The notes under the pieces: model-generated
Databases searched by the model: none
The model's input: only the letters and a program-made list of their open reading frames with translations
What the model was told of the DNA's origin: nothing
Assembly (NCBI GenBank): GCA_005518185.1
Contig: RKSN01000003.1
Span: 558,001-622,000, forward strand
Source: Chakrabartia godavariana
GTDB lineage: Bacteria > Pseudomonadota > Alphaproteobacteria > Sphingomonadales > Sphingomonadaceae
Length of the DNA: 64,000 nt
Reading direction: 5' to 3'
Part shown: piece by piece, positions 11,038 to 38,280 of the stretch
How positions within the stretch are numbered: the stretch's first letter is position 1
Layout: each line of letters starts with the position of its first letter
Position numbers and translations under genes: made by a program

Positions 11038-11772
11038 ATGGCTAACTGGTCAGACCCCCGTACGGTGGGCGCGGCTCCGGCAGTCGATGTCGGGGCGCGT
11101 GGCGCCGCGGTCGATGCGGGCCTGCGGTCCTACATGCTGTCTGTTTACAATTACATGTCCTCGGGCGTGTTGCTCACCGGCATTGTCGCCCTGCTGTTCG
11201 CCTCTTCGGGCGCGGCGCAGAACATCATGTTCGGCCCCGGCATTCTGAAGTGGGTGATCATCCTGTCGCCCCTGGCTTTCGTCATGGTGATGAACTTCGG
11301 GCTCAACCGTCTGTCCACGGCTGCGCTGCAGGCGTGTTTCTGGGGCTTTGCCACGGTCATGGGCCTGTCGATGTCGACGATCTTCCTCGTCTACACGGGC
11401 GCCTCGATCGCGCAGACCTTCTTTGCAACCGCTGCGGCCTTCGCGGGCCTCAGCCTGTGGGGTTACACCACGAAGAAGGATCTGTCGGGCTTCGGCACCT
11501 TCCTGATCATGGGCGTGGTCGGGCTGCTCGTCGCCTCCATCATCAACATCTTCCTGCAGTCGGGCACGATGAATCTCGTCATCAGCTTCGTCGGCGTGCT
11601 GCTGTTCGCGGGCCTCACCGCCTATGACACGCAGCGCATCAAGTCGATGTACGCCTATGTTGCGGGCACCGACATGGTCGGAAAGACCGTAATCATGGGC
11701 GCGCTGTCGCTCTATCTGGACTTCGTCAACATGTTCCAGTTCCTGCTCAGCTTCATGGGCAACCGCGACTGA
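11038..11772 (+). CDS. Bax inhibitor-1/YccA family membrane protein
   Basis: This 244-residue integral membrane protein has seven predicted hydrophobic helices from about residue 32. The family pattern is present: 'YNYMSSGVLLTGI' near the N-terminus, 'GLTAYDTQRIKSMY' in the sixth helix region and 'GALSLYLDFVNMFQFLLSF' near the end (the recognisable core is LYLDFVNMF). Bacterial members (YccA, BsYetJ) act as pH-sensitive calcium leak channels or modulate FtsH. A TATTGGAGAGAG ribosome site precedes the ATG at 11038. It is followed by a strong terminator. Confidence 0.92.
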   Translation: MANWSDPRTVGAAPAVDVGARGAAVDAGLRSYMLSVYNYMSSGVLLTGIVALLFASSGAAQNIMFGPGILKWVIILSPLAFVMVMNFGLNRLSTAALQACFWGFATVMGLSMSTIFLVYTGASIAQTFFATAAAFAGLSLWGYTTKKDLSGFGTFLIMGVVGLLVASIINIFLQSGTMNLVISFVGVLLFAGLTAYDTQRIKSMYAYVAGTDMVGKTVIMGALSLYLDFVNMFQFLLSFMGNRD

Positions 11773-24996: not shown

Positions 24997-27498
24997 TTAG
25001 AACTTCACCGTGCCTTCCACGCCGATCAGGCGGCGTGTGCCGGGGGTGATGAACGATCCGCCGAACTCCACGGCAGTGATGACTTCGTTCAGATACTTCT
25101 TGTTGAACAGGTTGTTGGCGAAGACCGACAGACCGAAGCGATCACTCTGGACGCCCAGGCGGGCGTTGAAGATGCCGAACGCGTCGCGGCGGGCCACATC
25201 ATACTTGCCGTCACCGACAAAGGCCGGGAGCTGGAGCGCCGAGCCGGGCAGCAGGCCCGAGAACAGCGTCGGGATCGACTGGTTCTGCACGGTGTGGAAC
25301 CAGGTCGGGCCGGTCAGGCGATAGTCGGCGCGGCCGACGATTTTCAGGTCGTTGCTGAGCGGCTGTTCCAGATCGACGCCGACGTTGAGCGTGTAGTCGG
25401 CCGTATAGGGCGACTTGTTGCCCACCGTGTAGGGACGCGAGCTGTTCTTCTTGATCGAGCTGTCGGTGTAGTTGAACGACCCGAACAGCTTGACGCCCTG
25501 CACCGGCTTCACCGTGGCGGTGAGTTCTGCACCCTTCAGGTCGACACGGTCGATGTTCGACACCACGCGCAGCAGGCCGAAACCGCCGACGAAGAATTCG
25601 AAGAACTGCATGTTGTGGACCTGGGTGTAATAGCCCGCGAGGTCGAAGGTGACCGCGCCATCCGCCAAATTGCCCTTCACGCCGGCTTCGAACGCGCTCG
25701 ACCATTCCTTCTTATACTGGTCATCCACGCGCACATTGGCGCCGAAGAAGTTGACGAAGCTGTTGCGGATGAGCTGTGCCGACCCCTGGTTGTTGAAGCC
25801 GCCGGATTTGAACCCGATGCCCCAGTTGCCATAGATGTTGAGGTCGTCCGTCGGCTTGTAGCTGAGTGTGACCTTGGGCTCGAACTGCTTGAAGCTCGCG
25901 CTCTTCGGGGTCAACGCGCCGAATGCCTGGCCGGGGTTGATCGGACCGCCGGTGAACGGATCGGTCGCGGTCGGGACGAGCGAGGAGGACTTGCGGTCCT
26001 CAACGTCGTAACGCACCGCCAGCCCGGCATCGAACTTGTCATTGGGCTTCCATTCGAGCGACCCGAAGGCGGCGTAGACATTGGTGTTGAACCGGTCGGC
26101 GAGCAGCAGCGTCGTCGGGTTGGTCGAGGTCGGCGCGTTGTACAGCTCCTTGATGACGCCGTTGCCCGTGTCGCCGCCAAGGCTGACGCCCACGGTGCGC
26201 TTGATGTGCAGGTAATAGGCGCCGAGCTGCCAGTTGATCGATTCGCCTTCGCCCATCACGCGCCATTCGGTGCTGAAATCGGTCTGCTTGCGCAGCTGAT
26301 ACTGCGTGCCGTCACAGGTCGTCGGGCTGTAGGGGCCGAAGGTCGAGCCATTGGCGGGCGCGAAGATGAACGGCACCGGGATCTGCCCGATGAAGCCGGG
26401 CTGGTTGACCTTGTAGCCGGTGAGCGCGGCGGTGCTCGCAAAGCAAGCGTTGACCGTCGCCTGGCCCGCCGGGCTGGCGGCGCCGATGAAGCGGGCAAAG
26501 TCGGCCGAGGTGCCGTCGGCGACGAGATCCTGATCGACGTTCGAATAGAGCGCCCAGCCGACGAGCTTCAGGCTGTCGGACAGTTCGTGATCAAGCTTGA
26601 CCGAGAAGTCGAGGCTCGTCTGGTCGTTGGTCGGCCGGATGTTGCTGTAGAAGTTGAACGGGTGCTTGTTCACGTCTTCGTAGAAGGCAGGGTTCACCGC
26701 GCCGAAATTGGGCAGATGGAACGACGCGTTGAACGGCAGCGAGGCGCCGTGGAATTCGGCATAGCGCGCCTTCAGGTCAACCTGCGTCGGGCCGCCATCG
26801 CCGATCAGGACGCGGCCATCGACCGCCCAGTTCTGCTTGTCGTCGACCGTCTTCGAATCGGTGAAGACATTGCGGTAAAAGCCATCGGACTTGCTGGCAT
26901 AGCCCGACAGGACAAAGCCCGCGCCTGCGCCGAGCGGTCCGGCGATGTGCGCGGTCGTTTCCCAGGTGTTGTACTGGCCATAGGACAGCTTGGCAGCCCC
27001 GGTGAGCGTGTCCGTCGGCTTCAGCGTCTGGATGACGATGGCACCGGCGGCGGCGTTGCGGCCGTAAATGGCGCCCTGCGGACCCTTGAGCATTTCAACC
27101 TGGCGCAGCGTGCCCTGCGGCTGGTTGAGCTGCGCGGTGTTGGTCTTGAGGATGCCGTCCACGACGAGCGCGACCGAGCTTTCGGCGTCTCGCGCGCCGT
27201 TGATGCCGCGGATGTTGATCTGCGTGTCGCCCGCTTCGGCAGTGCCGGTCACGATGGTGACGCCCGGCGTCAGGCGGACAAAGTCTTCCGCCTTGGTGGC
27301 GCCCGTGCGGGCAATCGTGTCAGCCGTGAGGACCGCGACCGACGCCGGCACGTCCTGAAGCCGTTCGTTCTGGCGACGGGCCGTGACGATGATGGCTTCA
27401 CCGTCGTCCCCTTCGGCGGCGTTCTGCGCAAGGACCGGCGTTGCCGTCAACGCGACGGCACTGGCGGTGGAAGCAAGGATAAATCGGGAAAGACGCAT
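24997..27498 (-). CDS. TonB-dependent outer membrane receptor
   Basis: This 833-residue receptor has a signal peptide ('MRLSRFILASTASAVALTATPVLA' region, cleavage near 24), a TonB-box-like 'AIIVTARR', a plug domain (about 45-160, 'INIRGINGARDAESSVALVVDG', core RGINGARD) and a 22-stranded barrel that ends in Phe ('GVEGTVKF'). AGGGAGG lies just before the ATG at 27498. It would import a bulky or scarce substrate across the outer membrane. It is divergent from a GntR regulator, with a palindromic site in the shared promoter, so it is probably the uptake gene of the adjacent catabolic cluster. Frames extending upstream of 27498 are not receptor-like. Confidence 0.93.
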   Translation of the reverse strand: MRLSRFILASTASAVALTATPVLAQNAAEGDDGEAIIVTARRQNERLQDVPASVAVLTADTIARTGATKAEDFVRLTPGVTIVTGTAEAGDTQINIRGINGARDAESSVALVVDGILKTNTAQLNQPQGTLRQVEMLKGPQGAIYGRNAAAGAIVIQTLKPTDTLTGAAKLSYGQYNTWETTAHIAGPLGAGAGFVLSGYASKSDGFYRNVFTDSKTVDDKQNWAVDGRVLIGDGGPTQVDLKARYAEFHGASLPFNASFHLPNFGAVNPAFYEDVNKHPFNFYSNIRPTNDQTSLDFSVKLDHELSDSLKLVGWALYSNVDQDLVADGTSADFARFIGAASPAGQATVNACFASTAALTGYKVNQPGFIGQIPVPFIFAPANGSTFGPYSPTTCDGTQYQLRKQTDFSTEWRVMGEGESINWQLGAYYLHIKRTVGVSLGGDTGNGVIKELYNAPTSTNPTTLLLADRFNTNVYAAFGSLEWKPNDKFDAGLAVRYDVEDRKSSSLVPTATDPFTGGPINPGQAFGALTPKSASFKQFEPKVTLSYKPTDDLNIYGNWGIGFKSGGFNNQGSAQLIRNSFVNFFGANVRVDDQYKKEWSSAFEAGVKGNLADGAVTFDLAGYYTQVHNMQFFEFFVGGFGLLRVVSNIDRVDLKGAELTATVKPVQGVKLFGSFNYTDSSIKKNSSRPYTVGNKSPYTADYTLNVGVDLEQPLSNDLKIVGRADYRLTGPTWFHTVQNQSIPTLFSGLLPGSALQLPAFVGDGKYDVARRDAFGIFNARLGVQSDRFGLSVFANNLFNKKYLNEVITAVEFGGSFITPGTRRLIGVEGTVKF

Positions 27499-27597
27499 TT
27501 TAACCTCCCTGTAAGGTAATCCGGATCGTTGCCGGACATGGGTTCTTGAGCCGCGCTGTTGGTGTCCTCGTGCGACAGGCGACTTGATGCGGCAAAG

Positions 27598-27626
27598 AGA
27601 TAATGTATACAAATAGCTACGGTCAA
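27598..27626 (-). promoter_or_regulatory. Candidate sigma-70 promoter of the TonB receptor
   Basis: On the minus strand TTGACC (27626-27621) and TTATCT (27603-27598) are separated by exactly 17 bases, in good position for the receptor gene that starts at 27498. The palindrome at 27604-27611 occupies the spacer directly next to the -10 box. Confidence 0.65.
27604..27611. promoter_or_regulatory. Candidate GntR operator 1 (TGTATACA)
   Basis: The perfect 8-bp palindrome TGTATACA has A/T-rich flanks (AATGTATACAAA). It lies in the spacer of the receptor promoter. On the plus strand its TATACA part would be the -10 box of the regulator, with TTGATG at 27584-27589 sixteen bases upstream. FadR-subfamily GntR proteins often bind TTGTATACAA-like sites. 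A bound repressor would block both genes. Confidence 0.6.
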
Positions 27627-27642
27627 GCTTTTTGGAGTCTCC

Positions 27643-28317
27643 ATGTCCCGCGCTTCCGATCGCGCTTACGATGTCATCCGCAACATGATCCTGTCGGGCG
27701 AACTCCCGGCGGGCGCGCAGCTTGTGGAAGAGGCGCTGGCCGAGAAATGCGGGGTTTCGCGCACACCGGTCCGCGAGGCGATGCGGCGGCTCGAATCGGA
27801 TCTTCTGGTCACGCGCACCGACACGCAGCGCAGCTTCGTGGCGGACTGGTCCCTTGACGATGTGGCCGATGCGTTTGAGCTGCGCGCCATGCTGGAAGGG
27901 CAGGCCGCCCGCCGCGCGGCCGAGCGCATGACCGATGCCGCGCTGGAACGCATCCGCGCCGCCAATCGCCAGATCGGCATCGCGATCGGCAAGCCGTCCC
28001 CCGATGTGGCCGGATTTCTTGAGGGAAACCGGGAGTTTCACGCCGTCATCCTCGAAGTGGCGGGCTCGCGCCGGCTGGCCTCGCTGCTCGTGACTCTGGT
28101 CGAACAGCCGGTCGTCTGGCGGACTGCGTACCATTATGGGCGCGAGGAATTGCGCCGCTCACATAATGAGCATGATGAGCTGATCGCGGCCTTTGCGCGC
28201 CGCGACGGTGCCTGGGCGGCCGCGATCATGACCAGCCACATCCTGCGCGCCTACCATGCCTATGCCGATGCGCATGGCGGCTTTGCCGAGCAGATGCATC
28301 GGGAGGCGGCCGAATAA
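27643..28317 (+). CDS. GntR-family transcriptional regulator, FCD (FadR-type) subfamily
   Basis: This 224-residue regulator has an N-terminal winged helix (about 5-75: 'YDVIRNMILSGELPAGAQL', 'LAEKCGVSRTPVREAMRRLE') and an all-helical FCD ligand-binding domain (about 80-220). The metal-ligand positions of FCD proteins are visible as 'FHAVI', 'HNEHDEL' and 'SHILRAYH'. Such proteins respond to carboxylic acid ligands. It is divergent from the TonB receptor and its stop overlaps the start of the lyase gene (TAATG). TGTATACA occurs at both control points, so it most likely represses itself, the receptor and the catabolic operon. The ligand is unknown. Confidence 0.93.
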   Translation: MSRASDRAYDVIRNMILSGELPAGAQLVEEALAEKCGVSRTPVREAMRRLESDLLVTRTDTQRSFVADWSLDDVADAFELRAMLEGQAARRAAERMTDAALERIRAANRQIGIAIGKPSPDVAGFLEGNREFHAVILEVAGSRRLASLLVTLVEQPVVWRTAYHYGREELRRSHNEHDELIAAFARRDGAWAAAIMTSHILRAYHAYADAHGGFAEQMHREAAE

Positions 28318-29225
28318 TGTATACAGAAACGATTGAAATGGTGGAGGTCGCGCCGCGCGACGGCCTCCAGAACGAAAAGAGGCTGATTGAAACGGCGGAC
28401 AAGATCGCGCTTGTTGACCGCGCGCTGGCCGCCGGTGTCCGGCGGATCGAGGTGACAAGCTTCGTCAATCCCAAGGCTGTCCCGCAAATGGCCGATGCCG
28501 AAGCCGTGTGCGCGGGCCTGCCGGAGCGCGACGACGTGACCTATATCGGTCTCGTCATGAACGCGCGCGGGGCGCACCGCGCACTCGCCACAGGCCGCAT
28601 TGATCAGCTGGGCGCGGTCGCTGTCGCCACCGATCAGTTCGCCATGGCCAATCAGGGCCAGACGAGCGACGGTTCGGTCGAGGCTGCGAAGGAGATCATC
28701 GCGCTGTCACAGGCGGCGGGCAAGACCGGGCAGGTGACCATCGGCGCGTCCTTCGGCTGCCCGTTCGAGGGCGAGGTGGCGGAGGACCGTGTCGTTGCGA
28801 TGGCGGCGGCGCTGGCTGAAGCCGGGCCGGTTGAAATCGGACTTGCCGACACGATCGGCGTCGGCAACCCGGCGCATGTGGCCTCGCTTGTGGGCAAGGT
28901 GCGCGCCGCTGTGCCGCACGTGCCCGTCCGGGTTCATTTCCACAACACGCGTGGTACGGGGCTCGCCAATGTGTGGGCCGCCATTGGCGCAGGCGCGCGC
29001 GTTGTCGACGCGTCGATCGGCGGGCTGGGCGGCTGCCCGTTCGCGCCGGGGGCGGCGGGCAATGTCTCGACCGAGGACGTCGTCTACATGCTCGAGCGCG
29101 CCGGCGTGCACACCGGGCTTGATCTTTCCGCGCTCGTTTCGGCCAACCACTGGCTGGGCGAGGTCATGCAACGCACACTTCCGGGAATGGTGCCCAAGGC
29201 GCCCGCATTCCCCAAACAGGCATAA
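28317..29225 (+). CDS. HMG-CoA lyase family enzyme (hydroxymethylglutaryl-CoA lyase type)
   Basis: This 302-residue TIM-barrel lyase of the HMGL/DRE-TIM family shows 'VEVAPRDGLQNEKRLI' at the N-terminus (catalytic Arg and metal-binding Asp in PRDGLQNE). It also has 'HFHNTRGTG' (metal His) and the HMG-CoA lyase Cys loop 'GLGGCPFAPGAAGNVSTED' (core GGCPFAPGA). The family cleaves 3-hydroxy-3-methylglutaryl-CoA or related 3-hydroxyacyl-CoA to an acyl-CoA and an oxoacid. It opens the operon with a one-base overlap with the regulator and is followed by hydantoinase-type genes, so the true substrate may be a pathway-specific hydroxyacyl-CoA and not leucine-derived HMG-CoA. Confidence 0.88.
   Translation: MYTETIEMVEVAPRDGLQNEKRLIETADKIALVDRALAAGVRRIEVTSFVNPKAVPQMADAEAVCAGLPERDDVTYIGLVMNARGAHRALATGRIDQLGAVAVATDQFAMANQGQTSDGSVEAAKEIIALSQAAGKTGQVTIGASFGCPFEGEVAEDRVVAMAAALAEAGPVEIGLADTIGVGNPAHVASLVGKVRAAVPHVPVRVHFHNTRGTGLANVWAAIGAGARVVDASIGGLGGCPFAPGAAGNVSTEDVVYMLERAGVHTGLDLSALVSANHWLGEVMQRTLPGMVPKAPAFPKQA
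28318..28325. promoter_or_regulatory. Candidate GntR operator 2 (TGTATACA) at the lyase start codon
   Basis: A second exact copy of TGTATACA overlaps the start codon of the HMG-CoA-lyase-family gene (A-TG-TAT-ACA at 28317-28325), again with AA on its left. It could act as a roadblock to transcription running from the regulator gene into the operon. Confidence 0.45.
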
Positions 29226-29243: not shown

Positions 29244-31292
29244 ATGGGATATCGTTTGGGGGTGGATGTCGGCGGCACCTTTACCGACCTCTTGCTGTTC
29301 AACACCGAAACCGGGGCCTTCTGGCGGCACAAGACGCCGTCGACGCCGCATGACAGTTCCGAAGGCATTCTGAACGGTGTGACGGCGATCTGCGCCAATG
29401 CCGGTGTCACGCCCGGCCAGATCGACTATTTCCTCCACGGAACGACGGTTGCGACCAATGCGGTGCTCGAAGGCAAGGGTGCCAAGGTGGGCCTCGTCAC
29501 GACCGAGGGCTATCGCGACATCATGCAGATCGCGCGCAGCTTCGTGCCCGGCGGTCTCGCGGCCTGGATCATCTGGCCCAAGCCGCAGCCGCTTGCCGCG
29601 CTGGAGAACACCGTCACCGTCAAGGGCCGCATGAATGCGGACGGGCAGGAAGTCCGCCCGCTCGATGAGGCCGATGTACGCAACCAGCTTGGCATCCTGA
29701 AGGCGAAGGGCGTCGAGGCGGTCACCGTCAGCCTGATCAACGCCTATGCCAATGGCGCGCACGAAGCGCGGATCGGCCAGATCGCGGCCGAAATCCTGCC
29801 CGGCGTGCCGGTGTCGCTGAGCCATGAGGTCCTGCCCGAAATGCAGGAATATGAACGCACGCTCACCACGGTGGCGAACGCTTCGGTCCGGCCGGTCGTC
29901 GGCAAATATGTCGCCAATCTGCGCAACCGTCTGGCGACCGAGGGCATGACCGGAAAGCTTTCGCTGCTCCGGTCGGATGGCGGCCTGATGAGCGCCGAAA
30001 AGGCCGAGGAGCATCCGGTCAACATCCTGATGTCGGGCCCCGCAGGCGGCGTGACCGGCGCCATCTGGGTCGGCCGCAATGCGGGCATCAAGAATATCCT
30101 GACGCTCGACGTCGGCGGCACCAGCACCGACGTGGCGCTGATCGAAAATCTCGAGCCGCGCCGCCAGCGTACGACCGAGGTCGGCCATCTGTCCGTGCGC
30201 GCCTCCGCGCTCGACGTGAAGACGGTGGGCGCAGGCGGCGGATCGATCGCTTATGTGCCCGAACTGACCAAGGCGCTGCGCGTCGGGCCGCAGAGCGCAG
30301 GCGCCGTTCCCGGCCCTGTCGCTTATGGCAAGGGCGGCACCGCGCCGACCGTGACCGACGCCAATGTCGTCCTTGGCTATCTGCCTGAAAACCTGTTGGG
30401 CGGGACGTTCCAGCTCGACCGTGAAGGCGCCAAGGCGGCGGTGCAGACGATTGCCGATGCACTCGGCATCGACCTGATGGCGGCGGCACGTGGCATCATC
30501 GACATCGTCAATGAAAACATGTTCGGCGCACTGCGCATGATCTCGGTCCAGCAGGGTTATGATCCGCGCGACTTTGCCGTGATGGGTTTTGGCGGCGCCG
30601 GGCCGCTCCACGTCAATGCGGTCGCCAAACTGATGGGCAGCTGGCCCGCCATTTCGCCGGTCAGCCCGGGCGTGCTGTGCGCGCTTGGCGATGCGACGAC
30701 GCGGATGCGGACCGAAACGGCCCGCTCCTGGTCGCGCCTTGCACAGGACACCAAGCCGGAAGATCTGGTCGCCGTGCTCGCTGAAATGGCGACGCAGGTG
30801 ACGGGCGAGCTTCTGTCGGACGGTGTGCCCGAAGCCGAGATCACGACTGCGTTCGAAGTCGATGTCCGCTATGCCGGACAGGCGTTCGAAGTGCCGCTGA
30901 CGATCACGCCGGACCTGCTGGCGGCCGAAGGTATTGCCGGCATCCTCGCCCGCTTTGACGAGGAGCACAAACGCCTCTTCACCTTCAACATGGATACCCC
31001 GCACGAGATCGTGAACCTGCGCGCCGTTGCGCTGGGCCGCGCGCTCGATCTGCCGGCGGCCCCTCTCGAACAGGGCAACGGCGATCCGTCGGCGGCCAAG
31101 CTGCGCGATCACGTCCTCTGGATGGACGGGCGCGAACAGGCGGCGGTCATCTATGACCGCGCCAAGCTGAAGGCAGGTGACGTCATCCCCGGCCCGGCCA
31201 TCGTCTGCGAGATGGACTCGACCACACTCATCGAATCCGACTGCGTCGGCACTGTCGACGCTGTCGGCAACATCCTCATCAACCTGGCCTGA
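29244..31292 (+). CDS. Hydantoinase/oxoprolinase A subunit (ATP-dependent cyclic amidase)
   Basis: This 682-residue protein has the N-terminal hydantoinase/oxoprolinase fold with the ASKHA phosphate motif 'GVDVGGTFTD' (residues 6-15), 'HGTTVATNAVLEGKGA', and a second domain with 'LTLDVGGTSTDVALI' and 'GAGGGSIAYV'. With the B subunit it forms enzymes that use ATP to hydrolyse cyclic amides, such as 5-oxoprolinase, N-methylhydantoinase and caprolactamase, or that carboxylate ketones, such as acetone and acetophenone carboxylases. The downstream B gene starts 17 bases later. The next genes argue for a cyclic amide or imide, but the family cannot be assigned to one substrate from sequence alone. 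Confidence 0.9.
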   Translation: MGYRLGVDVGGTFTDLLLFNTETGAFWRHKTPSTPHDSSEGILNGVTAICANAGVTPGQIDYFLHGTTVATNAVLEGKGAKVGLVTTEGYRDIMQIARSFVPGGLAAWIIWPKPQPLAALENTVTVKGRMNADGQEVRPLDEADVRNQLGILKAKGVEAVTVSLINAYANGAHEARIGQIAAEILPGVPVSLSHEVLPEMQEYERTLTTVANASVRPVVGKYVANLRNRLATEGMTGKLSLLRSDGGLMSAEKAEEHPVNILMSGPAGGVTGAIWVGRNAGIKNILTLDVGGTSTDVALIENLEPRRQRTTEVGHLSVRASALDVKTVGAGGGSIAYVPELTKALRVGPQSAGAVPGPVAYGKGGTAPTVTDANVVLGYLPENLLGGTFQLDREGAKAAVQTIADALGIDLMAAARGIIDIVNENMFGALRMISVQQGYDPRDFAVMGFGGAGPLHVNAVAKLMGSWPAISPVSPGVLCALGDATTRMRTETARSWSRLAQDTKPEDLVAVLAEMATQVTGELLSDGVPEAEITTAFEVDVRYAGQAFEVPLTITPDLLAAEGIAGILARFDEEHKRLFTFNMDTPHEIVNLRAVALGRALDLPAAPLEQGNGDPSAAKLRDHVLWMDGREQAAVIYDRAKLKAGDVIPGPAIVCEMDSTTLIESDCVGTVDAVGNILINLA

Positions 31293-31309
31293 CGGAAGGG
31301 ACCACAACC

Positions 31310-33196
31310 ATGGCTGCAACCATCGTTCAGACCAACACCAAGCCTTTCGAGAAGGTGGCCATCGATCCGGTCACGCTCGACATCATCGAAAACGCGCTGC
31401 GCAATGCCCGTGTCGAAATGGACGCGACGCTCGTGCGCACCGCCATGTCGCCGGGCATCCGCGAACAGGGCGACGCCTTTCCGCTGATTGCCGACCATAC
31501 CGGCAAGATGATCGTCGGCCAGTTCGGCAGCTTCATCGGCGGCTTCCTCGACAATTATGAAGGCACGCTGGAAGACGGCGACATGATCTTCCTGTCCGAT
31601 CCCTATTCGGTCGGCGGGGCGGTCAGCCATTCCAACGACTGGCTCGTACTTCTGCCCGTGTTCAAGGATGGCCGCCTGATCGCCTATACCTCGATGTTCG
31701 GCCACCAGTCCGACATTGGCGGCAAGGTCGTCGGCTCGATGCCGATCAACGCGCGGTCGATCTACGAGGAAGGCGTCCGCATTCCGCCCGTCAAGATCTG
31801 GAAGAAGGGCGAGTATAATGATGATCTGATGAAGCTCGTCATGCACCAGACCCGCAAGCCGGACTGGTGCGCGGCGGATCTGAACGCGCTCATCGCCTCA
31901 TGCCGGGTCGCGGCGCGTCGCGTCGTCGAAATGGCCGCGCGCTTTGGCGACGATGTCTATGTCTCGGCCACGCAGGAACTGCTGGCGCGCAACCACCGCG
32001 CGATGAAGACCCTCCTTTCTCAGGCGGTCAGCGAAGAGCCGGTCAGTTTTGAGGATTATATCTGCGACGACGGCATGGGCTTTGGCCCCTACCGCATCAA
32101 GTGCACGATGCGCCGCGAAGGTGAGGTCGTCATCCTCGATTTCGACGGCACCGACCCGCAGTCGATCGCCTCGATCAACTTCTATCTGAACGAGAACATG
32201 TTCAAGATGTTCTTCGGGATCTACATGATCATGGTCTTCGACCCGCAGATCCTGTTCAACGACGGCTTCTATGATCTGATCGACGTTCGGATTCCGGAAG
32301 GCTCGCTGCTGAAGCCGAAATTCCCGGCAGCGCTTTCGGGCCGCACCCATGCGCTGGGCCGCATCTTCGACATTCTGGGCGGCCTGCTCGGCCAGAAGAC
32401 GCCGGAGTTCCTGAACGCCGCCGGCTTCTCCTCCAGCCCGCACCTCTTCTATTCGGGCAATGACCAGCGTCCCGGCAAGGGCAATGCCTGGTTCCAGCTG
32501 TTCCAGATCGGCTTTGGCGGCATTCCGGGGCGTCCCCTGGGCGACGGGCCGGACGGCCACTCGCTCTGGCCGGGCTTCACCAACGTGCCCAACGAGTTTC
32601 TGGAACGCTACTTCCCGATGATGATCGAGCGCTATGAGACCGAGCCGGACTCGGGCGGGGCGGGCCTGCATCGCGGCGGCAATGGCATTCACATGACCTA
32701 TCGCTTCCTCTCGCCCGGCACGATCTCGATCCACGACGACCGCTGGTTCGTGCCGCCCTGGGGCGTGAATGGCGGTGAACCGGGCAAGCGCGCCCGCAAG
32801 ATCCTCGAAAAGGCGGATGGCACGCAGATCATCATCGCCAACAAGGTCGAGGATGTGGACGTCGAGGTCGATGACCAGCTGCACTTCATCACCTGGGGTG
32901 GCGGTGGCTGGGGCGATCCGCTGGAGCGCGATCCGGCGCTGGTCGCGCTGGAGATTGTGCAGGGGCTCGTCACGCCGGAGGGCGCACGCGCTTATGGCGT
33001 GGTGGTGGACGCCAGTGGCACCGTTGATGCGGCGGCCACCGAAAAGCTGCGCGCCGAGATGCGTACGACGCGCGGGCCGCTCGCGCTGTTCAACGCCGGG
33101 CCGGGCATCGAGACGCTGCGCGCGAATTGCGCCGCGGAAACCGGCCTGCCCGCCCCCGTCCAGCCCGTCTGGAAGCATCTGGAGGCGGCGGAGTGA
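31310..33196 (+). CDS. Hydantoinase/oxoprolinase B subunit
   Basis: This 628-residue protein begins 'IDPVTLDIIENALRNARVEM' (core PVTLDIIENAL), the hydantoinase B signature. It contains 'GQFGSFIGGFLDN', 'DFDGTDPQ' and, near the end, 'TWGGGGWGDPLERDP', the Gly-rich C-terminal motif of the family. This subunit carries the hydrolytic or carboxylation chemistry after ATP activation by A. Separate A and B genes are usual for bacterial hydantoinases and lactamases, whereas eukaryotic 5-oxoprolinase is one fused chain. GGAAGGG lies before the ATG. The last bases overlap or adjoin the CoA-transferase gene. Confidence 0.9.
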   Translation: MAATIVQTNTKPFEKVAIDPVTLDIIENALRNARVEMDATLVRTAMSPGIREQGDAFPLIADHTGKMIVGQFGSFIGGFLDNYEGTLEDGDMIFLSDPYSVGGAVSHSNDWLVLLPVFKDGRLIAYTSMFGHQSDIGGKVVGSMPINARSIYEEGVRIPPVKIWKKGEYNDDLMKLVMHQTRKPDWCAADLNALIASCRVAARRVVEMAARFGDDVYVSATQELLARNHRAMKTLLSQAVSEEPVSFEDYICDDGMGFGPYRIKCTMRREGEVVILDFDGTDPQSIASINFYLNENMFKMFFGIYMIMVFDPQILFNDGFYDLIDVRIPEGSLLKPKFPAALSGRTHALGRIFDILGGLLGQKTPEFLNAAGFSSSPHLFYSGNDQRPGKGNAWFQLFQIGFGGIPGRPLGDGPDGHSLWPGFTNVPNEFLERYFPMMIERYETEPDSGGAGLHRGGNGIHMTYRFLSPGTISIHDDRWFVPPWGVNGGEPGKRARKILEKADGTQIIIANKVEDVDVEVDDQLHFITWGGGGWGDPLERDPALVALEIVQGLVTPEGARAYGVVVDASGTVDAAATEKLRAEMRTTRGPLALFNAGPGIETLRANCAAETGLPAPVQPVWKHLEAAE

Positions 33197-33201
33197 CAGC
33201 C

Positions 33202-34389
33202 ATGAACACGGGGGCTTTGCGCGACATTCGGGTCGTCGAACTCGGCCAGCTGCTTGCCGGGCCGTTCTGCGGCCAGCTGCTGGGTGATATGGGCGCCGAC
33301 GTGATCAAGGTCGAACCGCCGGTCACGGGGGACCCCATGCGTGAATGGGGGCAGGGTGCCGAAAAGGTGCAATGGGAAGTCATTGCCCGCAACAAGCGCT
33401 CGGTCAGCGCCAATCTGCGCGTGCCCGAAGGGCAGGCGCTGGTGAAGCGGCTGATCGCCCATGCCGATGTCCTCATCGAGAACTTCAAGCCCGGCACGAT
33501 GGAGAAATGGGGCCTTGGCCCCGACGTCCTTCTGGCCGAATTCCCCGGTCTCATCATCGCGCGCATGTCCGGCTATGGGCAGACCGGCCCCTATTCGGAC
33601 CGCGCGGGCTTTGGCGGGATCGGCGAAGCGATGGGCGGCTGGCGCTACATCGTCGGGGAACCGGACCGGCCGCCGAGCCGCATGGGCATCTCGATCGGCG
33701 ATACGCTGACGGCGACCTATGGCTGCATGGGCGTGCTCGCCGCGCTGCATGAGCGGGAGCGTTCCGGGCGCGGGCAGGTCATCGATGCGGCGCTCTATGA
33801 AAGCGTGCTGCAGGTCATGGAAGGGCTCGTGCCCGAATATGACCGCATGGGCCTGATCCGTGAACGGTCCGGCTCGGTGCTGAAGGGCATTGCCCCGTCC
33901 AACGTCTACAGCTGCAAGGACGGTGAGTTCATGATCGGCGCCAACAAGGACTCGCTGTGGAAGCGGCTGGCCGAGGCCATGGGCCGTCCCGAACTCGGCG
34001 ATGATCCGCGCTATGCAACGCATCTGGCGCGCGGCGAAAATCAGGACGAGCTCGACGCCCTCATCAACGACTGGACGAAGACGCTGACCGTTGATGAGGT
34101 CGATGCGCTGATGATCGACTATTCGATCCCGGCGGGCCGCGTCTACCGCGCGCCGGACATGATCGCCGACCCGCATTTCCAGGCGCGCGACGCGATCATC
34201 GAGGTGGAGACCGAACGCTTCGGGCCGCTCAAGATGCAGTCGAGCTTCCCCAAATTTTCGGCCACCCCCGGCAGCGTTCGGCGCCCGGCGCCGTCCAGGG
34301 TGGGGCAGCACAATGCCGAAATCTATGGCGAGCTGCTCGGCCTTGAAGCCGCAGAGCTGGCGGCGATGGCGGACAAGGGGATCATCTGA
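33202..34389 (+). CDS. Class III CoA-transferase (CaiB/BaiF family)
   Basis: This 395-residue protein begins 'LRDIRVVELGQLLAGPFCGQ' (core VVELGQLLAGPF) and has 'LGDMGADVIKVEPP', 'NKRSVSANLRVPEG' and 'GRGQVIDAALYESV'. The Asp of 'ISIGDTLTA' occupies the position of the catalytic Asp that forms the acyl anhydride in formyl-CoA transferase. It moves CoA between carboxylic acids. Two starts are possible: ATG at 33202 (chosen, canonical N-terminus) or GTG at 33193, which overlaps the previous stop by four bases. In this operon it probably activates the ring-opened or hydroxylated acid for the HMG-CoA-lyase-type enzyme. Confidence 0.9.
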   Translation: MNTGALRDIRVVELGQLLAGPFCGQLLGDMGADVIKVEPPVTGDPMREWGQGAEKVQWEVIARNKRSVSANLRVPEGQALVKRLIAHADVLIENFKPGTMEKWGLGPDVLLAEFPGLIIARMSGYGQTGPYSDRAGFGGIGEAMGGWRYIVGEPDRPPSRMGISIGDTLTATYGCMGVLAALHERERSGRGQVIDAALYESVLQVMEGLVPEYDRMGLIRERSGSVLKGIAPSNVYSCKDGEFMIGANKDSLWKRLAEAMGRPELGDDPRYATHLARGENQDELDALINDWTKTLTVDEVDALMIDYSIPAGRVYRAPDMIADPHFQARDAIIEVETERFGPLKMQSSFPKFSATPGSVRRPAPSRVGQHNAEIYGELLGLEAAELAAMADKGII

Positions 34390-35033
34390 TGGCGCGTCCG
34401 GAGGATGATCTCGGGGCCAATTATGCGGGGGCCTTTGATGGCACCCTGCCCTTTGGCGCGCGCCCGGCGCTGATCGTTATCGACCTTGTGGAGGCCTATC
34501 TCCAGCCCGGATCGCCGCTTTATGCCGGGATTGAACCCGCGCTCGACAGCGCGGTGCGGCTGGTGGCGGCGGCGCGGGCGGCGGGTATTCCGGTCATCTT
34601 CACCAATGTCGCCTATCAGAAGGGGGGCGCCGATGGCGGCGTCTTCTTCCGCAAGATTCCGGCGCTCAAGGTGTTCGAAGAAGGCTCCCCGCTCGGGGCG
34701 TTCCCGGCCGTGCTCAGCCCGCAGGTTGGCGATCTCGTCATTACCAAGCGCTATGCCTCGGCCTTTTTCGCGACGCATCTGGCCGCGACGCTGACCGCGC
34801 ACGGCATCGACACGGTCATGCTGTGCGGCACCTCAACGTCAGGCTGCGTGCGCGCGACCGCGCTCGATGCCTGCCAGCACGGCTTTGTGCCCTATGTCGT
34901 CCGCGATGCCTGTGGCGACCGGCACGCTGGCCCGCATGAGGCCAATCTGTTCGACATGCAGGCGAAGTTCGCCGAAGTCGTGAGCGAGGCGCAGGCGATC
35001 GACCTGCTCAGGCCAGCACCTTCCCGGGATTGA
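34389..35033 (+). CDS. Cysteine hydrolase, isochorismatase family (N-carbamoylsarcosine amidohydrolase-like)
   Basis: This 214-residue protein has the catalytic triad of the amidohydrolase branch of the isochorismatase fold: Asp32 in 'LIVIDLVEAY', Lys120 in 'VITKRYASAF' and Cys153 in 'TSTSGCVRATA'. Members hydrolyse N-carbamoyl amino acids, maleamate, nicotinamide or similar amides. The start overlaps the preceding stop by one base (TGATG) and the 3' end overlaps the convergent dehydrogenase gene by 26 bases. Coupling with hydantoinase A/B is what is seen in creatinine/N-methylhydantoin degradation, so an N-carbamoyl or half-amide product of the cyclic amidase is a plausible substrate. Confidence 0.9.
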   Translation: MARPEDDLGANYAGAFDGTLPFGARPALIVIDLVEAYLQPGSPLYAGIEPALDSAVRLVAAARAAGIPVIFTNVAYQKGGADGGVFFRKIPALKVFEEGSPLGAFPAVLSPQVGDLVITKRYASAFFATHLAATLTAHGIDTVMLCGTSTSGCVRATALDACQHGFVPYVVRDACGDRHAGPHEANLFDMQAKFAEVVSEAQAIDLLRPAPSRD

Positions 35034-36381
35034 GAAGCCCCAGCGGATCGAACGCCGCCTTCAGGCGACGCATCGTTGCAATCTCGTCGGCCGAGCGCGA
35101 GAGGTGGAGGAAGTCCTTCTTGTGCAGGCCAATGCCATGTTCGGCGGAGATCGACCCGTCGAGCGCGGTCGCGACCTCATAGACAGCCTCCTCGACCGCC
35201 AGCAGATCGTCCGGGCCAAAGCCGCCCGCGATCAAATGGACATTGCCGTCGCAGACATGGCCGAAATAGATTTGCGTCGTGCCCGGCCAGCGCGCTTCAA
35301 GGGAGGCGGTGCAATTCTCGACAAACGCACCGATGCGGCTCGTCGGCACGCTGATGTCGAAATTGCCGACGGGGTTGAACGCCTGAATGAGTTCACCCCC
35401 CATGTCGCGCACCGCCCAGATGGCGCGCGTCTGCTGGACCGACTGGGCGAGCACGGCATCGGCGGCGATGCCCTGTTCAAACGCGGCCTCCAGAAAGGCG
35501 GCCAATTCGGCTTCGGCCTGTTCGCCCGAGGACGAGACTTCGGTGATGACATAGCCGCCCGCACCCGGCGCGAGCGGCGGCGGGGCCGCCTGCTTGGCGG
35601 CGGCGCGGACATAGAATTCGGGCCACATCACCTCAAAGGCCGACAGGCTGTCGCCCAGCCGTTCGCGCGCTAGCCCGAGAAAGCGCTCGATTGCGGCATA
35701 ATCGGCAAAGCTGGCGAGCGAGGTTGCGACGCTGCGTGGTTTGGGGGCCATGCGCAGCACGACGCGCGTGATGAGGCCCAACGTCCCTTCGCTGCCGATG
35801 AAGACCTGCTTCAGGTCATAGGCGGCGTTGTTCTTGAGCATCTGGTTCATGGAAGAGACGATGGTGCCGTCGGCCAGCACGGCCTCAAGCCCGAGCACCA
35901 TCGCGCGCGCCATCCCGTATCTGAGGACCCGGTTCCCGCCGGCATTGGTGGAGAGGTTGCCCCCGATCTGGCAGGTGCCGCGCGACCCGATGTCGAGCGG
36001 GAAGAGCATGCCCGCGTCGTCCGCCGCGATCTGGATGGCCTCCAGCGGAACGCCCGCCTGCGTGGTCAACGTCTGCGACACTGCGTCGACGGCTTCGATC
36101 TTGTTCATCCGCTCCATCGAGATGAGCAGCGCGCCGTCATCGGGCACCGTGCCGCCGGTCAGCCCGGTCAACCCACCCTGCGGGACGACGGGAATGCGGT
36201 GTGCCGTTGCGATCCGGAGCGCGTCCGACACCTCCTGCGTGGAGCGCGGCCGGAACAGCGCGAGGGGCCGCACGCCGGGTGCGGCGCGCATCAGCCAGTC
36301 GCCGAAATACTTCTCGCTGATCTCGGTCTCGGGCGGATTGTCGGGGAAGGCCGCGACCAAGGCGTCAAGGGCGGATGACAT
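35008..36381 (-). CDS. FAD-linked 2-hydroxyacid dehydrogenase (GlcD/D-2-hydroxyglutarate dehydrogenase type)
   Basis: This 457-residue flavoprotein of the VAO/PCMH fold has 'PVVPQGGLTGLTGGTVPDDG' (core PQGGLTGLTGG), 'GMLFPLDIGSRGTCQIGGNLSTNAGG' (core IGGNLSTNAGG, FAD pyrophosphate site) and a C-terminal cap ending 'EHGIGLHKKDFL..AFDPLGLLNPGKVL'. The family oxidises D-lactate, glycolate or D-2-hydroxyglutarate to 2-oxoacids. The start at 36381 ('MSSALDALVAAFP') is divergent from the Rieske oxygenase, and the 3' end overlaps the isochorismatase-type gene by 26 bases. It could produce a 2-oxoacid for the benzoylformate-decarboxylase-type enzyme at 41905-43461; that is inference. Confidence 0.9.
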   Translation of the reverse strand: MSSALDALVAAFPDNPPETEISEKYFGDWLMRAAPGVRPLALFRPRSTQEVSDALRIATAHRIPVVPQGGLTGLTGGTVPDDGALLISMERMNKIEAVDAVSQTLTTQAGVPLEAIQIAADDAGMLFPLDIGSRGTCQIGGNLSTNAGGNRVLRYGMARAMVLGLEAVLADGTIVSSMNQMLKNNAAYDLKQVFIGSEGTLGLITRVVLRMAPKPRSVATSLASFADYAAIERFLGLARERLGDSLSAFEVMWPEFYVRAAAKQAAPPPLAPGAGGYVITEVSSSGEQAEAELAAFLEAAFEQGIAADAVLAQSVQQTRAIWAVRDMGGELIQAFNPVGNFDISVPTSRIGAFVENCTASLEARWPGTTQIYFGHVCDGNVHLIAGGFGPDDLLAVEEAVYEVATALDGSISAEHGIGLHKKDFLHLSRSADEIATMRRLKAAFDPLGLLNPGKVLA

Positions 36382-36445
36382 GGTGGCTGACTCTCCCAAT
36401 TCGTATGTGTCGCGTACTATTGCGCTTCCGCCATTCAAGCCTAAG

Positions 36446-37804
36446 ATGCAAGCCATGATATGGGAAGAGGTGAGGGGCCTTGTCGATGATCGCGTCGACG
36501 ACGGCTGGTTCAGCGTGGACCGTCGCGCATTCACGGCGCAGGAGGTCTTTGACCTTGAGATGCGGCACGTCTTCGAAGGCGGCTGGGTCTTTCTCGGCAT
36601 GGCGAGCCAGCTGCCCAACCCGCACGACTATCTGACCACCACCGTCGGGCGCGTGCCCGTGGTCGTCATGCGCGATGGCGAGGGGAAACTCGGCGCCTAT
36701 ATCAACGCCTGCACGCACAAGGGCGCGCTGATCTGTCACAAGCGCACGGGCAGTGGGCGGTTGCATGTCTGCCGCTATCACAGCTGGAGCTTTGACAGTG
36801 CGGGCAGGAATGTCGCGGTCAAGGCGATGAAGGACGGCGCCTACTCGGACGCATTCAAGGCGTTTGACCGCAACCTTGTCCGCCTTGCCGCCTTCGCCGA
36901 TTATCGCGGCTTCCTGTTCGGCAGTCTGGTTGAGACCTGTTCGATCGAAGAGCATCTGGGTGAGGCGCGCCACATGCTCGACCTTGCCGCCGATCAGGGC
37001 GAGGACGGGCTGGAACTGGTGCCGGGCGAAGTCATCTTCACCTATGACGGCAACTGGAAACTCCAGCTCGAAAACTGCGCCGACGCCTATCACTTCACCT
37101 CCGCGCATCCGTCCTATCTCCAGCTCGTCGAGAAGCGCAGGCGCGAGGAGAAGGCCAATTCGGTCAAGTCGGTCTGGGGCGAGAATTCGGCCTGGAGCGA
37201 GATGACCGAGGGCGTCACCGGCGGCACCTACGCCTTTGAGCAGGGCCATGTCGTCAACTGGCAGATCATCCCCTTGAGCGACACCGTGCCGCTGGCCGAC
37301 CGTGCCGAGATCCTCGCCGCGCGCCACGGCGAGAAGCGCCGCGACTGGATGGTCAATATGCGCAACGTGACGATCTTTCCCAACATGCAGATCGCCGAGA
37401 ATGCGTCGAGCCAGCTGCGCATCATCCGGCCCATTGCGCCGGGCCTGACCGAGATGCGCACCTTCTGCATCGCACCCAAGGGGGAAAGCGCCGAAGCGCG
37501 GCGGATGCGCATCCGCAATTATGAGGATTTCTTCAATCCGACCGGCATGGCGACACCCGATGACACGATCTGCTACGCCGATTGTCAGGATGGCCACGCG
37601 AACCCGATGCAGTCTTGGATTCTCGGCTATTCCCGCGGCATGACGAGCGTGCAGCAAGGCGCGGATGAATTCGCCGAAGTGCTCGACATGACGCCTGACC
37701 GCAGCCAGCCCTGCGGATCGCAGCTCTGCGACGAAACGCTGTTCCACAGTTACTACCGCGCCTGGCTCGGGCGGCTGAAGGCCGGCATGGAGCGCGACGC
37801 ATGA
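36446..37804 (+). CDS. Rieske aromatic-ring-hydroxylating oxygenase, alpha subunit
   Basis: This 452-residue protein contains a Rieske [2Fe-2S] site, Cys89-x-His91 and Cys109-x2-His112 (17 residues between). The mononuclear iron site has Asp213, His216 and His221 in 'ENCADAYHFTSAHP'. The segment 'NWKLQLENCADAYH' is typical of benzoate/anthranilate/toluate-type dioxygenases, which also use a separate small beta subunit, and that subunit follows. Starts at 36446 or 36455 are both possible; neither has a strong ribosome site. No ferredoxin or reductase gene is seen nearby, so electrons must come from elsewhere. The substrate is unknown. Confidence 0.93.
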   Translation: MQAMIWEEVRGLVDDRVDDGWFSVDRRAFTAQEVFDLEMRHVFEGGWVFLGMASQLPNPHDYLTTTVGRVPVVVMRDGEGKLGAYINACTHKGALICHKRTGSGRLHVCRYHSWSFDSAGRNVAVKAMKDGAYSDAFKAFDRNLVRLAAFADYRGFLFGSLVETCSIEEHLGEARHMLDLAADQGEDGLELVPGEVIFTYDGNWKLQLENCADAYHFTSAHPSYLQLVEKRRREEKANSVKSVWGENSAWSEMTEGVTGGTYAFEQGHVVNWQIIPLSDTVPLADRAEILAARHGEKRRDWMVNMRNVTIFPNMQIAENASSQLRIIRPIAPGLTEMRTFCIAPKGESAEARRMRIRNYEDFFNPTGMATPDDTICYADCQDGHANPMQSWILGYSRGMTSVQQGADEFAEVLDMTPDRSQPCGSQLCDETLFHSYYRAWLGRLKAGMERDA

Positions 37805-38280
37805 TCACGCGCGCTGAGGCGGAAGACCTGATCGCCCGCGAAAGTCTGGCGCTCGACCGGCGGGACTGGGACGGGTGGCTGTCGCTCTTCACCGAGGACT
37901 GTTCCTACTGGATGCCCGCCTGGCGCGACGAGGAAAACCCGACCGAAGACCCGCAGAGCGAGCTGTCGCTGATCTGGTATCAGGGGCGGCACAATCTGGA
38001 AGACCGCGTGTGGCGCGTGAAGTCGGGCCTGTCGGTCGCGTCGGTGCCGCTCATGCGGACCTCGCACCATGTGTCCAACATATTGGTCGAGGGTGCGGAC
38101 CGCGTGGCGGCGAGCTTTGCGGTCCATGTCCACAATGCGAAGCGTCGGGCGGACCATGTCTTCTTCGGGCGCTACGAATACCGTCTCGTGCGCGAGGGCG
38201 ATGCGCTGAAGATTGCCGAGAAGAAGATCCTGCTGATGAACGATTACATCCCGGCGGTGGCTGATTTTTATATGCTGTGA
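37801..38280 (+). CDS. Aromatic-ring-hydroxylating oxygenase, beta subunit
   Basis: This 159-residue protein is the small subunit with the SnoaL/NTF2-like cone fold. It has 'EAEDLIARESLALDRRDWDGWLSLFTED' (core LDRRDWDGWLSLF) at the N-terminus, 'RTSHHVSNI' in the middle and 'LLMNDYIPAVADFYML' at the end. It has a structural role in the alpha3beta3 oxygenase. The start overlaps the alpha subunit stop by four bases (ATGA). The two subunits form one operon that ends here before a repeat region. Confidence 0.92.
   Translation: MITRAEAEDLIARESLALDRRDWDGWLSLFTEDCSYWMPAWRDEENPTEDPQSELSLIWYQGRHNLEDRVWRVKSGLSVASVPLMRTSHHVSNILVEGADRVAASFAVHVHNAKRRADHVFFGRYEYRLVREGDALKIAEKKILLMNDYIPAVADFYML

Follow-up and report, generated by a model that had tools for sequence, protein, structure and literature searches.

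The region examined lies in a stretch of 64,000 nucleotides from Chakrabartia godavariana (contig RKSN01000003.1, positions 558,001 to 622,000), hereafter called the window. It carries a gene for a GntR-FCD regulator (gntR), a divergent gene that we take to encode a TonB-dependent receptor, following an earlier note on this DNA and general background rather than a family library, and an operon that begins with an HMG-CoA-lyase-like gene. Two exact copies of the palindrome TGTATACA, termed site 1 and site 2, accompany these genes. The features are as follows.

24997–27498, minus strand: presumed TonB-dependent receptor gene, divergent from gntR (open reading frame)
27584–27611, plus strand: candidate gntR promoter, TTGATG (27584–27589), 16 nt, TATACA (27606–27611)
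27598–27626, minus strand: candidate receptor promoter, TTGACC (27626–27621), 17 nt, TTATCT (27603–27598), with site 1 in the spacer
27604–27611, no strand assigned: site 1, putative operator, exact TGTATACA in the receptor promoter spacer
27643–28317, plus strand: gntR, GntR-FCD regulator, likely binder of both sites (PF00392, 2.8e-18; PF07729, 1.9e-24)
28317–29225, plus strand: HMG-CoA-lyase-like gene, first of the operon (PF00682, 4.4e-44; NF004283 above cut-off)
28318–28325, no strand assigned: site 2, putative operator, exact TGTATACA overlapping the lyase start codon
29244–31292, plus strand: hydantoinase/oxoprolinase A-like subunit (PF01968, 8e-86)
31310–33196, plus strand: hydantoinase/oxoprolinase B-like subunit (PF02538, 4.8e-145)
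33202–34389, plus strand: family III CoA-transferase (PF02515, 1.5e-124)
34389–35033, plus strand: isochorismatase-family hydrolase (PF00857, 2.1e-41)

The start of the lyase gene overlaps the stop codon of gntR, and receptor homologues adjoin gntR in most relatives. Judging from the gene set, a cyclic amide may be imported and its ring opened, after which the product would be activated with CoA and cleaved by the lyase. This combination of lyase, hydantoinase-like pair, CoA-transferase, hydrolase and receptor is a recurring one (29244–35033 in the window for the genes that follow the lyase). Located 3ˊ of the operon (35011–38280) are a gene on the minus strand for a GlcD-like FAD protein and a benzoate-dioxygenase-like Rieske pair, and no copies of TGTATACA are found near these genes. 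A search of the open-licence literature returned no description of this locus.

An exact pattern search of the whole window yields only two copies of TGTATACA, which are separated by 714 bp. With the lyase start codon included, the second reads ATGTATACA (28317–28325). The earlier note had placed both copies at these positions and had judged the pair unlikely to be accidental, and both statements are borne out. Specifically, 100 dinucleotide shuffles of the window contain a mean of 0.04 copies (sd 0.20), and none of them carries two. A hand estimate from the shuffle density gives approximately 0.001 expected pairs spaced by 714 bp or less in a genome of this size. Permitting one mismatch adds a sole match in the window, at 11142. 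The same note had named many unrelated copies scattered in the genome as an outcome that would count against its reading. The genome (3,168,918 bases in five contigs) holds only four, two of which are at this locus. The third is inside a GNAT acetyltransferase-like ORF (L066, 5772) and the fourth is near efflux genes (L067, 5817), with no matches to the window proteins of this locus beside either copy. The shuffles, the genome count and the conservation described below rule out a chance origin of the pair. Helical phasing was also considered: the distance corresponds to 68.0 turns at 10.5 bp, yet the spacings in relatives with the gntR-lyase arrangement (703–840 bp) keep no helical phase, and therefore we place no weight on this value.

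Site 1 lies within both candidate promoters, and its TATACA portion (27606–27611) is likely the −10 element of gntR. The promoter geometry given in the earlier note stands, with TTGACC and TTATCT separated by 17 nt for the receptor and TTGATG and TATACA separated by 16 nt for gntR. However, its description of the receptor promoter as good is generous, since a strict sigma-70 scan of 27480–28450 finds no promoters and misses both candidates. Each is a weak match to the consensus. The TTGATG-16-TATACA arrangement is kept in all seven sequences of the closest group. In addition, GTCAAG, which complements all but a small part of the receptor −35 element, is present in all 14 upstream sequences printed, and GGTCAAG in 12 of them.

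The protein encoded between the sites contains a GntR domain (PF00392, 65.8 bits, cut-off 27) followed by an FCD domain (PF07729, 86.9 bits, cut-off 24.3), which assigns it at curated cut-offs to the FCD (FadR) subfamily of the GntR superfamily. The operator form of this subfamily, a palindrome with GT and AC boxes 2–3 nt apart, is also found here, as judged by comparison alone. None of 16 listed NCBIfam equivalog families (PhnR, CsiR, PdhR, LldR, GlcC and others) is matched at its curated cut-off, the best score being for TIGR03338 with 115.1 of the 271.5 bits needed. Atu1419 is the best sequence match in the PDB (6z74, E 1.5e-24), and PmiR of Pseudomonas aeruginosa (7XP0, 7XP1), which has the same fold, is second (E 6.5e-21). 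An AlphaFold2 model of the regulator has a mean pLDDT of 93.1, and Foldseek ranks the Atu1419–DNA complex first by E-value for this model. By TM-score, 7u5q, 3ihu and 9isw are above Atu1419, and VIA-align places 7u5q first (Z 23.4) with Atu1419 (Z 21.5) tied with several other FCD structures. Therefore, Atu1419 can be called the closest structure only in terms of the Foldseek E-value. The helices predicted for the effector domain span residues 71–95, 98–116, 122–140, 143–153 plus 156–163, 167–185 and 189–223, which gives the six helices of the VanR group if 143–153 and 156–163 form one kinked helix, and seven if these are split.

Atu1419 of Agrobacterium fabrum belongs to the VanR group of FCD GntR regulators (structures 6Z74, 6ZA0, 6ZA3, 6ZA7 and 6ZAB) and is reported to bind ATGTATACAT in vitro as well as in crystals, to act as a repressor of its own promoter region and to have paired sites, one over a −10 element and the other in a −35/−10 spacer (Vigouroux et al. 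2020, PMC7797058). The window locus resembles this system in its operator core, in the placing of palindromes in a −35/−10 spacer and over a −10 element, and in its divergent, presumably autoregulated layout. The further degenerate site reported inside an ORF regulated by Atu1419 is counted as another likeness (PMC7797058). However, Atu1419 is described as controlling hydroxycinnamate genes with a folate as the proposed effector, its 10-bp ATGTATACAT sites are 190 bp apart in comparison with an 8-bp core with other flanks at 714 bp here, and no start-codon operator is seen in the portions of that report drawn on (PMC7797058).

The two proteins are only about a third identical, but the metal ligands and four of five DNA contacts are kept. 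Specifically, the Atu1419 contacts Glu34, Arg45, Thr46 and Arg49 correspond to E29, R40, T41 and R44, and the ligands Asn137, His141, His192 and His214 correspond to N129, H133, H177 and H199. All eight residues are invariant in 27 homologues. The fifth contact, the phosphate-contacting Arg31, corresponds to Gln26. The stretch SRTPVR, which holds three of the contacts, is common to FCD regulators at large, and therefore the kept contacts are consistent with, but not proof of, the same specificity. The 27-protein alignment leaves out L028 (a near copy of L027), L030 (partial) and L034 (in-frame stop), as well as the weaker G024 and G016. A second alignment combines the window protein with 31 of 80 distant FCD loci, a pattern-based sample among the matches listed.

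The exact operator of MdcY is ATTGTATACAAT. GT-N2-AC operators are described for the GntR, HpxS, HypR, MdcY, PrpR and UxuR groups of the FadR subfamily (Suvorova et al. 2015, PMC4494728), and TGTATACA fits this consensus with its 2-nt gap from GT to AC. The regulons of these groups differ from that of the window, however, and the window regulator falls under all 16 NCBIfam equivalog cut-offs.

Homologues of the regulator were accepted at E values up to 1e-30, by which 32 of 60 genomes are positive, including the genome of the window. Stretches around 31 of these were compared together with the window, giving 32 loci. In 25 of the 32 loci a copy of TGTATACA lies no more than 300 bp upstream of gntR, and in seven it does not; the runner-up among all 256 eight-base palindromes is present there in four. 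At least one copy is found within 9 kb in 29 loci, with none over this distance in the other three (G017, G024 and G016). Relatives with another gene order also have the palindrome at the lyase operon. Site 1 stays in place among relatives, whereas the second site moves between the lyase start, the region upstream of the lyase and the receptor start. For example, the second copy in G002, G005 and G009 is 96 bp from site 1, beside the receptor start, and G001 and G007 each have a single exact site. An uncultured Erythrobacter assembly (L087) shares the arrangement of the window, one copy lying at −39 and the other on the start codon of the lyase gene. The palindrome thus tracks gntR and recurs at the lyase operon. 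Together with its absence near a related operon that lacks the regulator (G048, below) and the same core being bound by Atu1419, this supports the proposal of the earlier note that the two copies are control points of a local regulator.

Pairs of TGTATACA spaced by 23 bp occur upstream of the lyase gene at five loci (G037, G044, G046, G050 and G054). In relatives where the lyase and CoA-transferase genes diverge (L055, L056, L057, L060 and L062), pairs with this spacing lie between the two genes, as would suit a pair of dimers bound next to each other.

The other 28 genomes, which lack the regulator at the cut-off, served as a control. Seven of these have HydA-like genes (E up to 1e-100) at a total of 16 loci, of which one carries TGTATACA (L078, 35% identity) and 15 do not. 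The most informative case is G048, where a lyase, HydA, HydB, CoA-transferase and hydrolase at 52–68% identity are present without the regulator at the cut-off and no TGTATACA occurs in 19 kb; G047, which has HydA and HydB, likewise lacks a copy over stretches of 19 and 12 kb. Since such loci mostly lack the palindrome, the site goes with the regulator and not with the operon. Cut-off-negative genomes may carry a more distant regulator. Whole-genome searches for TTGTATACAA find a match in 22 of 31 regulator-bearing genomes, but a control pattern in reverse is matched at a similar rate, and thus at this strictness these counts say little and it is position that is informative. Among 80 distant FCD regulators in the matches listed, 10 have TGTATACA within 330 bp upstream, compared with four for the next palindromes, which indicates that the core is widespread. 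At many Firmicutes FCD loci among the matches listed (within L103–L162), TGTATACA is found approximately 1 kb upstream of the regulator gene, where it may mark the start of an operon in which the regulator gene is second.

Site 2 corresponds to bases 2–9 of the lyase reading frame (ATG TAT ACA). The lyase start could be compared in 23 loci, and 17 of these carry a copy on the start codon (the window, G000, together with G012, G027 and G013) or up to 130 bp upstream of it (13 loci). No copy is found near the lyase start in the remaining six (G009, G005, G002, G007, G001 and G016), among which G001 and G007 keep the one-mismatch form TGTATTCA at this position. With the inclusion of L087, the ATG TAT ACA start is found in five genomes. 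Lyase N-termini otherwise vary (MGPD, MYSN, MTAT, MAVP, MQNA, MIPD), and ACA is used for 15 of 347 threonine codons in 12 window genes, yet all five MYT starts are encoded with TAT ACA. The rarity of ACA and the variable N-termini therefore indicate that the constraint probably comes from the DNA site and not from the peptide.

A tree was built from 25 lyases without those of G007, whose contig ends in the gene, and G016; the G012 lyase is represented by its first 248 residues, as the match continues in another frame. The five start-codon sites fall in two separate parts of this tree and require four state changes, also when only well supported branches are used, and their label shows no more clustering than expected from shuffling, as 148 of 500 shuffles give a count as low. 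A single origin of the start-codon site on this tree is accordingly rejected, and the pattern may reflect repeated gain, gain and loss, or transfer of the lyase gene. The lyase of G027 (L041, 8283–9194) is 55% identical to that of the window, adjoins HydA and HydB at 83% identity, and groups elsewhere on the tree. This lyase gene may have been replaced while its start-codon operator was kept or regained.

Judged from sequence, both copies of TGTATACA are almost certainly binding sites of the regulator encoded between them. We favour a local repressor of the classical kind that controls its own gene, and we are highly confident that both palindromes are operators of this GntR-FCD protein, whereby site 1 would shut the divergent promoters, site 2 would stop readthrough, and an inducer would release both. 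The comparisons establish the sites with their spacing and conservation, their association with gntR and the kinship with Atu1419, for which the same operator core is proven; in proposing this scheme we infer that the protein binds the sites and represses instead of activating, as well as how site 2 acts and what releases the repressor. With site 1 inside the receptor spacer and probably forming the gntR −10 element, a bound dimer would shut both promoters and so repress uptake and gntR itself. At the end of gntR, repressor on site 2 would stop polymerase passing from gntR into the catabolic operon, either alone as a roadblock or through a tetramer that joins it to site 1, as described for Atu1419. 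The inducer is presumably a compound of the pathway, with release assumed from the behaviour of the family. The sequence upstream of site 2 is coding, and by eye that of the window and that of G012 differ except for the ribosome-binding stretch. Since no conserved promoter is seen there in these two genomes, site 2 more likely acts on transcription that originates at the gntR promoter. A more speculative proposal, which we hold only tentatively, is that the start-codon operator splits one transcript, such that gntR is made from the shared promoter whereas polymerase halts where the first catabolic gene begins to be read, and that the operator was fitted onto ATG TAT ACA more than once in evolution and so dictates the first residues of the enzyme.

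It is conceivable, though we consider it unlikely, that site 2 acts mainly through DNA looping, with a tetramer bridging the two sites over 714 bp rather than by a local roadblock. Electron microscopy of Atu1419 has shown a tetramer looping two sites 190 bp apart, but according to the same report no other member of the superfamily had been a tetramer before, the rest being dimers (PMC7797058). In favour of looping, the second site shifts while site 1 is fixed, although this mobility would suit a roadblock as well; both the single exact site of G001 and G007 and the spacings without helical phase argue against a loop. A still less probable explanation is that the lyase operon has an internal promoter of its own near the gntR 3' end, and that site 2 overlies it. 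In G003, G004, G006 and G011 the copy is in a gap upstream of the lyase with room for such a promoter, but the window copy is on the start codon, is preceded by coding sequence that diverges from G012 outside the ribosome-binding stretch, and has no promoter detectable by the strict sigma-70 scan.

FCD paralogues exist in general, and another one in the genome could share the site. That a different regulator of the same specificity binds both copies seems very improbable to us; many FCD regulators share the core (10 of the 80 distant ones among the matches listed), but the genome has only four copies of TGTATACA and their presence in relatives follows this gntR. The weakest contender, to which we attach almost no probability, is that site 2 merely results from what the lyase gene encodes. 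Although it is in the reading frame as Met-Tyr-Thr, a coding constraint is ruled out as its cause by the variable lyase N-termini and the consistent choice of the rare ACA codon, and 13 other loci carry their copy upstream of the lyase start.

With good support, the locus adds a new example to a known type of bacterial gene switch. These comparisons raise it from a hunch based on raw sequence to a supported regulon for uncharacterised catabolic genes that recur across one bacterial order, and they supply an exact putative operator that can be used for inducer screening. In addition, the recurring start-codon operator provides a compact case of a binding site laid over coding sequence, in which roadblock and looping can be contrasted as modes of repression.
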